Origin: Bacteriovoracaceae bacterium
GTDB taxonomy: Bacteria > Bdellovibrionota > Bacteriovoracia > Bacteriovoracales > Bacteriovoracaceae
Assembly: GCA_025210745.1 (NCBI GenBank)
Contig: JAOARC010000050.1
Span: 62,001-126,000, forward strand
Direction: 5' to 3'
DNA length: 64,000 nt
Below are positions 10,637-13,246 of the stretch, piece after piece; positions within the stretch are counted from its first letter, which is position 1; every line of letters begins with the position of its first letter. Below the pieces are notes generated by a model. The model saw nothing but the letters and a program-made list of their open reading frames with translations, was not told the DNA's origin and searched no databases. The translations under genes and the position numbers were made by a program.

Positions 10637-10738
10637 AAATAAAAGGCACTCTCTGGCTAGTTGTTGATATATTTCTGGTCGGCGTACCTTATAGAAGTTA
10701 ACTACAATTTAAATTTAAAATGGTGTGACCTTTTATTT
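10637..10738 (+). ncRNA. Candidate structured RNA between convergent genes
   Basis: Closed by a perfect 10-bp inverted repeat AAATAAAAGG (10637-10646) / CCTTTTATTT (10729-10738), extended inward by CAC/GTG after a three-base bulge. Inside, TAGTT pairs with AACTA, ATTTCT with AGAAGT, and GGT with ACC, giving nested helices. A TATAAT box at 10620-10625 lies just upstream on the plus strand, with no clear -35. The 3' arm overlaps the last six bases of the minus-strand gene. It resembles no RNA family I recognise; a bidirectional 3'-end element for the two converging genes is the main alternative. Strand is uncertain. Confidence 0.35.
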
Positions 10739-11236
10739 AAAATTTGATCTTTTAATTTTATTATCTTTACTCACACTAATCCAAGTAACTTCATTATAAC
10801 GATTTACATCGATCCTTTTATTTGGGCCACACAGATAATAAGTATCCTGATAAACAGTATGACCTTTCGTATACATTTTAGATTTCATTTTTTTACAGCT
10901 TGATCCCTTCCAACGTTTTAGTATCTTATCCAATGTAAACTCTGTATTTAAAAAACCAGTTGGTCCAAATGTAACCTTAATTACCTTTTTACTCTTAATA
11001 TCAAATCCAATTACCCACTCCTGAAGTCTTGTTTGATCAGAATAATAAACCCAAGAATCTTCATTTTTACCACTTTTTTGGCTAGGTTCTCCTAATAAGC
11101 TTAACACTTTAGACTTATTCCAATTACTTACAATACTCTGTTCTAGAACAGACCACTTACTTTCAGCTGCTTCCTTAATAGATAATTGATTTGAACTACA
11201 ACTAACAATAGTAATTAACAATAAAATCCATTTCAT
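10733..11236 (-). CDS. SmpA/OmlA (BamE)-like lipoprotein
   Basis: The N-terminus MKWILLLITIVSCSS is a lipoprotein signal with lipobox VSC. The mature part carries WNKSKVLSLLGEPSQ followed by WVYYSD, which is the KxxVxxLLGxP...WxY pattern of the SmpA/OmlA fold used by BamE and related outer-membrane lipoproteins. Two Cys residues in the C-terminal half may form a disulfide. The start overlaps the stop of the HExxH gene by four bases (ATGA), so the two are probably coexpressed. It is longer than BamE and is unlikely to be the Bam subunit itself. Confidence 0.65.
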   Translation of the reverse strand: MKWILLLITIVSCSSNQLSIKEAAESKWSVLEQSIVSNWNKSKVLSLLGEPSQKSGKNEDSWVYYSDQTRLQEWVIGFDIKSKKVIKVTFGPTGFLNTEFTLDKILKRWKGSSCKKMKSKMYTKGHTVYQDTYYLCGPNKRIDVNRYNEVTWISVSKDNKIKRSNFK

Positions 11237-11946
11237 TTTTTATCTCTCCAAAAAGCTTCCAACCAATTAAATATCTTTGGATAGTCTTTTTTAAAACTTT
11301 CTTTTTCAAACAGATAGTGTTCAACATTATTTGAAAAATCTTCATCAGGATCACTTTTCCCATCATACTCAGAAAACTTTTTTCTTTTTGTTTTAAACTC
11401 TCCATTTATAGTTTTTATCCATCGACTTACTTTATGCAATGATTTCTTCTCTTCATCTGATAATCTATCGTAAAGAATATGTGCTAATTCATGAGCAAGA
11501 TACCTACTCAGATCCTCACTAAAAGCCAAATCATATAATACAACTATTTTTACAGAAGGAGCTGTAGAAGCTGGATTACCTGAAAATATAGACCTATTTG
11601 CACAGTGAATCTTTAACTTACCGATATTAGTTAAAATCTTAGGTAGAGCTGATAAAGCCTTATCAATCTTTCTTTGCTTAATTTGCGAGCACTTTTTAAA
11701 CTTTTCTTTTTTCTGAGGCCAGCCTCTTGGCATATTTGACTTAAATATAGACTTTAACGGGCCATCACTTCTATAATGCTTACAGTAAGCAGATATATTT
11801 GACCCTTTAACAAACTTTCCATTTCTATAATGAGCCTGTCTATAATGTTCTTGAACTTTATACATTCCCTTAGGACAAGTTGCCCCATATACTTTCCAAC
11901 TAGAAAGACACAATGTAAGTAATATCAACTTTATAAACCAACTCAT
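11233..11946 (-). CDS. Secreted protein with an HExxH zinc-protease motif
   Basis: A 237-residue protein with an N-terminal signal peptide (cleavage probably after VYG). Around residue 145 the sequence YLAHELAHILYD contains HELAH, the zinc-binding and catalytic helix of gluzincin-type metallopeptidases; a third ligand is not obvious, with acidic residues downstream (SDPDEDFSNNVEHY) as candidates. The N-terminal half has several Cys residues. No known peptidase family is recognised. TTGAG lies six bases before the ATG. It is translationally coupled to the BamE-like lipoprotein that follows, which suggests both act at the envelope. Confidence 0.7.
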   Translation of the reverse strand: MSWFIKLILLTLCLSSWKVYGATCPKGMYKVQEHYRQAHYRNGKFVKGSNISAYCKHYRSDGPLKSIFKSNMPRGWPQKKEKFKKCSQIKQRKIDKALSALPKILTNIGKLKIHCANRSIFSGNPASTAPSVKIVVLYDLAFSEDLSRYLAHELAHILYDRLSDEEKKSLHKVSRWIKTINGEFKTKRKKFSEYDGKSDPDEDFSNNVEHYLFEKESFKKDYPKIFNWLEAFWRDKK

Positions 11947-11971: not shown

Positions 11972-12334
11972 TTAGCTTTGAATGATTTTTATAATTATCT
12001 CAAATATACGTTCAACTCTTTTTAGAGCTATATCTTTATCGTCATAGCCTAAGAATCCTATCATAGCTTCTTCAATCTCAGCTCTTCGCTTTATAAATAT
12101 AGCTAGTTTATTCTTTATTTCAGTAATAACTTCTGAATTCGCCTTTTTTAAACGCTCTTCAATACCTATCACACCATCTAATAACTCTGTAATATCCTCA
12201 AGGTCTTGACTGAATCTAATATCATCACATAAACCTCTATCAAAAAATGCTTGTAGCTTTGTCGCTAAAAAGAATTCGATTTTTAAAATTCTAATTTCAA
12301 CCTCATCGATCTCTACTTTGATAGCACTACACTA
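11972..12334 (-). pseudogene. C-terminal part of a frameshifted AbiEii-like nucleotidyltransferase
   Basis: This frame has no upstream ATG; the only start-like codon is an internal GTG at 12172. Read from about 12318 it encodes a segment with FFLATKLQAF, DRG, and SQDLEDITELLDG, which is the conserved C-terminal pattern of AbiEii-type nucleotidyltransferases (LAtKLeAf..RG..D....sDleDi..LldG). It continues the protein begun in the other frame at 12687 and ends at 11972. The two frames overlap, and joining them by a -1 shift on A-AAG just before the first stop gives a continuous family-like protein of about 237 residues. Confidence 0.7.
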
Positions 12335-12687
12335 TTAAGACCTTCTTTAAACCATGGATTACTATACCCTAGGACACTTTCCTCTACTGGAATAAAATCA
12401 ATTTTCATACCCAAAATATACTTTCTACAAGTTGGCGGATTAGTATCCTCTCCAGATATATCGTAGTCTTGAAATCCCTTTGCTCTTAACTTTTCTTCAA
12501 ACTGCGTCCATTCTTTATATGTTAAAATCTCAACAACGCAATCAACATCTTCTGATGGCTGTGGAGTAGGAGCTGCCTTATCATCTATGTAAAGCTCTAC
12601 AGTTGCACCACCAACAAAAACTACATCATTAGAAATATCTCCAAGTACTTGTGCTATTGATTTTATCGAGTTTAAATTTTTATTCAT
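12313..12687 (-). CDS. AbiEii-like nucleotidyltransferase, N-terminal part ended by a frameshift
   Basis: A 124-residue reading frame with the nucleotidyltransferase core: VVFVGGATVELY, then SEDVDCVVEI giving the metal-binding Asp-x-Asp, then a third acidic strand at KIDFIP. The family's C-terminal half is missing here and is found in the -1 frame immediately downstream. The last codons before the TAG at 12313-12315 read TCA AAG TAG, so a one-base slip back on AAG continues into GTA GAG ATC. Either a single-base deletion or sequencing error broke the gene, or the slip is used. AAAGG precedes the ATG, which overlaps the upstream regulator gene by eight bases. Confidence 0.75.
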   Translation of the reverse strand: MNKNLNSIKSIAQVLGDISNDVVFVGGATVELYIDDKAAPTPQPSEDVDCVVEILTYKEWTQFEEKLRAKGFQDYDISGEDTNPPTCRKYILGMKIDFIPVEESVLGYSNPWFKEGLNSVVLSK

Positions 12688-13198
12688 TTAATAGCCTTTC
12701 TAGCGACTTATTAGCTTCTTTAATATGCCTAACACCACCAAGGCCTCTATAAATATCTACAATGCTTAAAAAAAGATATAACTTTTCATTATTAATAACT
12801 GATTCAGGAATTTTAGCGAGAACAGGTTTAACAACAACTCCCTTTGAATCTCCATTTTCATGTGGCCATATATAATAATCATCACTATGCACTTTTTGAC
12901 CAAACTCAAGGGCACTTGGCCCAGCAAAGTACCCTCTACCTATTCCATATTTTTCTAGCGGTACAAAATACTTAATAGCGCATGTAAGAAACTCTTTAAT
13001 TGCAATTTTGTGAAGCTTTTTGGAGTTAACGCTTATTAATCCAACAGACTCAAGCGCCTTAAAGCCCAGTGAAACTTCTGACTGACTAATTTCAAGCTCA
13101 ATACTCACCTCTTTTTGTGATGGCCAATTTTCATCTGTAATTAGTTTACCTAGAATTGCTATATCTTGAGGTTTTATTCCCCTGCTTTTTCTACTCAT
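12680..13198 (-). CDS. Winged-helix transcriptional regulator paired with the nucleotidyltransferase
   Basis: A 172-residue protein. Residues 1-65 form a winged helix (WPSQKEVSIELEISQSEVS, then GLISV), of the kind seen in antitoxin-like and MarR-like regulators; the rest has no family I can name. The start is ATG 13198, not the in-frame TTG at 13246, because a near-perfect 22-bp palindrome and a promoter fill 13207-13242. There is no Shine-Dalgarno sequence before the ATG, and the predicted transcription start is nearly at the ATG, so the mRNA may be leaderless. The stop overlaps the nucleotidyltransferase start. The layout (small regulator, then AbiEii-like enzyme, shared operator) resembles AbiE-type toxin-antitoxin modules. 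Confidence 0.7.
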   Translation of the reverse strand: MSRKSRGIKPQDIAILGKLITDENWPSQKEVSIELEISQSEVSLGFKALESVGLISVNSKKLHKIAIKEFLTCAIKYFVPLEKYGIGRGYFAGPSALEFGQKVHSDDYYIWPHENGDSKGVVVKPVLAKIPESVINNEKLYLFLSIVDIYRGLGGVRHIKEANKSLERLLNE

Positions 13199-13206
13199 AA
13201 TTATAT

Positions 13207-13242
13207 ATAATATCACAGATATCGAATATTGCAATATGCGAT
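13207..13242 (-). promoter_or_regulatory. Operator palindrome and promoter of the regulator gene
   Basis: ATCGAATATTG / CAATATGCGAT at 13221-13242 is a 22-bp palindrome with one mismatched pair. On the minus strand its centre TTGCAA (13229-13234) can act as a -35, followed after 16 bases by TATTAT (13207-13212) as -10. A repressor bound here would block the promoter, which fits autoregulation by the winged-helix protein. Confidence 0.6.
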
Positions 13243-13246
13243 ACAA

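Follow-up and report, generated by a model that had tools for sequence, protein, structure and literature searches.

A probable decayed member of PDC-M21, a widespread toxin-antitoxin-like gene pair, in a Bacteriovoracaceae genome

Two described systems come closest to the locus analyzed here. In AbiE, a winged-helix gene is followed by a gene for a nucleotidyltransferase of the AbiEii family. The first protein, AbiEi, autoregulates (PMC7319586). In the MenAT systems of Mycobacterium tuberculosis, the toxin MenT1 is a tRNA nucleotidyltransferase (PMC10435456), and it was reported that MenT1 and MenT3 lose their activity when a Thr or Ser in the active site is phosphorylated (PMC11375011). Most toxin-antitoxin pairs of M. 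tuberculosis with a primary start (32 out of 37) are leaderless (PMC3898074). A third entry, PDC-M21, is listed among the PADLOC candidates as a pair of profiles without a description, and a literature search found no paper naming it.

The window is a stretch of 64,000 nucleotides from a Bacteriovoracaceae bacterium (contig JAOARC010000050.1). It contains a gene for a winged-helix protein (A) and the remains of a nucleotidyltransferase gene (B), together with the following features:

12680-13198, minus strand: gene A, winged-helix regulator and presumed antitoxin, intact, 172 aa (PDC-M21A 1e-21; AF2 model, pLDDT 94.2)
12313-12687, minus strand: N-terminal half of gene B with the GG and DxD motifs, 124 aa, ending early (PDC-M21B 1.5e-26)
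11972-12331, minus strand: C-terminal half of gene B in another frame, with the motifs ATK.EAF..RG and S.DLEDI (profile 122-231)
12325-12334, minus strand: exact 5-bp tandem repeat where the two B frames meet (read directly)
13220-13243, no strand: predicted palindromic operator, 24 bp with one mismatch, 11 of 12 pairs (family-wide motif)
13207-13234, minus strand: predicted promoter, -35 TTGCAA (13234-13229) within the operator and -10 TATTAT (13212-13207) (sequence match)

The initial annotation had not tied this pair to a known entry, yet both genes already have one, as they match the candidate PDC-M21. The same holds for all aligned relatives, with the genes in the same order as in the window. 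Gene A is conserved in every one of the 55 relatives aligned, and A and B are adjacent at all 13 places found among 97 related genomes. The locus is likely a decayed member of this widespread two-gene module, which would be autoregulated and toxin-antitoxin-like, with a toxin of the MenT/AbiEii type and an antitoxin unrelated to AbiEi.

The two genes overlap by 8 nt (12680-12687), the ATG of B lying at 12687 on the minus strand; this overlap had been described before and can be read directly. For A, a TTG start called by the program (13246) would place the operator within the gene. In the family alignment, the start lies shortly 5' of the KPQD motif, which supports ATG 13198 as the true start. 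Searches of the window proteins against Pfam, NCBIfam and PDB sequences gave nothing or weak winged-helix matches only. The fold matches of the AF2 model of A are winged-helix proteins, none of them with an E-value below 0.05; as far as the fold search reaches, the C-terminal domain of A thus seems to have no counterpart in the PDB. No known antitoxin was matched by this domain in either the sequence or the fold searches, in agreement with the earlier remark that the C-terminal part resembles no antitoxin. In three further loci (L176 2244-3398, L177 2496-3599 and L178 1053-2207), an A-like domain is followed in the same protein by a long C-terminal part, by eye similar to TetR, and B is not nearby.

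The likeness to AbiE-type modules that had been suggested proved to be one-sided. On the toxin side it stands: PF08843 (AbiEii) matches 10 of the 14 rows of the B alignment, even though the N-terminal half from the window alone has no Pfam match. The A protein, however, is no AbiEi by profile or by its best fold matches. No AbiEi model occurs among the matches of the 55 A relatives, and the AbiEi structure 6y8q is absent among the 50 best fold matches of A. Membership in AbiE proper was rejected on these grounds. The A protein also differs from the COG5340 antitoxins MenA3 and MenA4, nor was any kinship with the 68-aa MenA1 apparent. The B protein, in contrast, is close to the MenT toxins. The AF2 model of B from an intact relative (pLDDT 93.8) has MenT1 as its best fold match (E 2.3e-6; 8an5/8an4). 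The Thr/Ser-x-Asp-x-Asp motif, which holds the MenT phosphoacceptor, is retained in B: this residue is a Thr in 48 of 49 rows and a Ser in the window. The same fold search also returns the ANT(2'') drug nucleotidyltransferases, which would fit an ordinary regulator paired with a metabolic or drug-modifying nucleotidyltransferase, outside any toxin-antitoxin module. These matches are weaker (E about 1e-3) and far behind that of MenT1, and the Pfam match of the B relatives is AbiEii. As the strict pairing, the autoregulatory operator and the spread on plasmids also fit a toxin-antitoxin module better, the metabolic or drug-modifying role is considered improbable.

The predicted operator has the arms TATCGAATATTG/CAATATGCGATA and spans the -35 of the promoter. 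The palindrome over the -35 with one mismatch is therefore present as initially annotated, but it is 24 bp long instead of 22 bp. By itself it is no rarer than chance (one in 64 kb, against 0-2 in shuffles), and its weight, like that of the promoter, derives from conservation in relatives and not from the window alone. Among 92 distinct regions upstream of A, 49% have a palindrome score of at least 10 (0.5% in shuffles). Two WYGCRW units with a 7-bp spacing are found in 72% of these regions and three in 47%, compared to 0.9% and about 0% (0.0%) in shuffles. That the operator is conserved throughout the family, in relatives from several phyla, is well supported by these comparisons, and with it the proposal that the module has an operator of its own. 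Both PDC-M21 and AbiE have an inverted-repeat operator over the promoter, but PDC-M21 has one 24-bp palindrome of 7-bp-spaced units whereas AbiE has two 23-bp repeats. The copies on proteobacterial plasmids show, by eye, a comparable nested arrangement built from a different sequence (GTCC...GGAC). A regulon under the control of A was also considered and rejected, as the operator pattern has a single site in the whole genome.

The -10 hexamer of the window carries an extended TG. Transcription is predicted to start at about 13199-13201, which is 1-3 nt from ATG 13198, and this codon has no visible Shine-Dalgarno sequence in front of it; both points agree with the initial annotation. In the window alone, the promoter match is not above chance (11 found, 16 expected). 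Again, the relatives are more informative. With a cut-off of at least 6 of 7, 11 of 29 loci from outside the Bacteroidota have a -10-like hexamer at a distance of exactly 6 nt upstream of the ATG of A, compared to a mean of 0.20 and a maximum of 2 in 100 shuffles. When 47 loci are taken, 11 have it at 6 nt and at most 2 at any other distance; with a looser cut-off these numbers become 20 and at most 7. The Bacteroidota loci have no -10 peak at 6 nt. Given the usual promoter spacing, a -10 at 6 nt would place the start of transcription in these relatives on the A of the ATG. In the window, the -10 ends 8 nt 5' of the ATG instead of 6 nt, which counts against this explanation. The leaderless mRNA of A, first raised as a possibility, is nonetheless probable, since the 6-nt position is far above chance in the relatives outside the Bacteroidota. 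Such a layout would not be new in kind, as most toxin-antitoxin pairs of M. tuberculosis are leaderless (PMC3898074), and it would add a further likeness to MenAT.

A module of regulator and nucleotidyltransferase had been proposed for this locus. It is indeed found across the family, but the copy in the window is frame-broken, which had been missed. The relatives of B are about 230-240 aa long. Here the match of the N-terminal half to PDC-M21B covers only positions 7-120 of 234; in a profile alignment of both halves, it spans 7-123, and the C-terminal half follows in another frame. The 5-bp repeat at the junction resembles what replication slippage would leave. From the sequence, the toxin gene appears dead in this genome; with B broken at the repeat, the copy would not be a working module, and only A and its operator would still be usable.

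The module would be functional here if programmed frameshifting yielded a single B product across the break, or if B worked as two polypeptides. The conserved motifs are retained in both halves, and in several broken relatives the lesion lies in the same stretch between the lobes (about profile 106-133). Yet no XXXYYYZ slippery heptamer was seen in the 19-nt window permitting a shift, and no start codon precedes the conserved motif of the C-terminal half. The lesions of the relatives are moreover of mixed kinds (stops, shifts and deletions) at different sites, and most relatives have a single open B frame. A functional B by either route is thus highly improbable. A somewhat less remote alternative is that the organism has an intact B and that the break is an error of assembly or sequencing, the genome being a draft (50 contigs, 88% complete). 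A 5-bp tandem duplication would be unusual as a base-calling error, however, and B of the nearest relative is damaged as well, through different lesions. An artifact is accordingly considered unlikely.

In this nearest relative (L002, A 54% identical), B has lost the GG motif and the C-terminus, and the operator and the plain ATG of A are lost too. A survey of the phylum (369 genomes, counted by hand) found 27 intact A/B pairs, seven loci where B is broken but A open (G000, G024:C58, G115, G340, G224, G199, G319) and two without B (G272, G301). No locus among the 369 genomes has B intact and A broken; G156 is cut by a contig end. The lesion in G224 is the mildest, only the C-terminus of B being missing, and in G024:C58 A has no plain start codon. 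Once gene length is taken into account, the probability that all seven lesions fall in B by chance is about 0.02, a small bias counted in one phylum and with 80 genome-contig loci left out as they had been found through A. This bias mildly favours the view that B is the costly gene. The lesions of broken B genes (12325-12334 in the window; L036, L057, L070, L075, L172, L174 and L175) cluster at about profile 106-133, between the lobes, an interval picked after the fact.

The family was found in 122 plasmid records, where its neighbours include a relaxase (L107) and repC (L108), and was unmatched in phage records. In viral contigs, A of the window has no match and the family has five loci. Genome contigs were scanned with a six-row subset of the A alignment, the full alignment being too diverse.

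The base gene order at the locus is scpB-rluB-orf105-tRNA-Met-trpS. In two relatives trpS adjoins tRNA-Met; in the window they are about 4.4 kb apart, the module being the part closest to the tRNA, and a genome of the same genus has 9.9 kb of other content there. In G016, an integrase-like gene (L198 11253-12419) adjoins the same tRNA-Met, by eye, which suggests an integration hotspot. No second copy of the tRNA-Met end, as for an att site, occurs in the window.

Some copies are accompanied by a third gene. In the window, a gene for an exported HExxH metallopeptidase-like protein, then one for a BamE-like lipoprotein, starts 25 bp after the C-terminal half of B (10733-11946, minus strand). In three other genomes (L134, L006, L122), a relative of the metallopeptidase comes immediately after a PDC-M21 pair; others follow MazEF (L230) or a BrnT-like toxin accompanied by an RHH gene (L247). 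As a fixed part of the module this gene was rejected, most copies of its family being elsewhere. On proteobacterial plasmids (rhizobia, pseudomonads and Acinetobacter), a gene for a PP2C-type phosphatase is found 3' of B, as in these loci:

L211, 3699-4373: PP2C-type phosphatase directly after B
L215, 3186-3938: PP2C-type phosphatase directly after B
L217, 3208-3891: PP2C-type phosphatase directly after B
L248, 2463-3134: PP2C-type phosphatase directly after B

Its Pfam PP2C matches are at or just under the cut-off, and the NCBIfam Stp1 matches (6.8e-10 and 2.9e-8) are both below that of Stp1. B is listed in 48 of the 58 plasmid records with the phosphatase, which lies on the same strand, 3-334 bp downstream, in all 48. 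The position of a PP2C after B, together with the Thr/Ser at which phosphorylation silences MenT toxins, suggests a reversible phospho-switch as a testable idea. Tentatively, PDC-M21 might be a phospho-switched family: a novel type of antitoxin would favour phosphorylation of the conserved active-site Thr/Ser of the toxin, and the plasmid PP2C would take the phosphate off and make the toxin active again. When the literature was searched for a phosphatase of this sort, the only paper returned was that on MenT3 phosphorylation.

The pairing, the operator, the position of the -10, the broken frame and the fold class of B can be read from sequences and models, and from these we infer how intact members would work. 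The A protein would bind the palindrome laid over the promoter and repress its own operon, the mRNA of which would begin at or beside the start codon of A. B would be translated by coupling through the A/B overlap. As a nucleotidyltransferase of the MenT/AbiEii type, it would most likely add nucleotides to the ends of tRNA and stop growth, and A would neutralise it, probably via its C-terminal domain. In the window genome, A and the operator alone could still work.

The copy in the window is mainly of value as an example of decay. For the family, an untested defence candidate conserved across phyla gains a testable mechanism, with an operator, a probable start, a class for its toxin and an antitoxin of a new type. 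With a phosphatase beside a MenT-like toxin, the model of MenT phosphorylation may become testable as a reversible switch.
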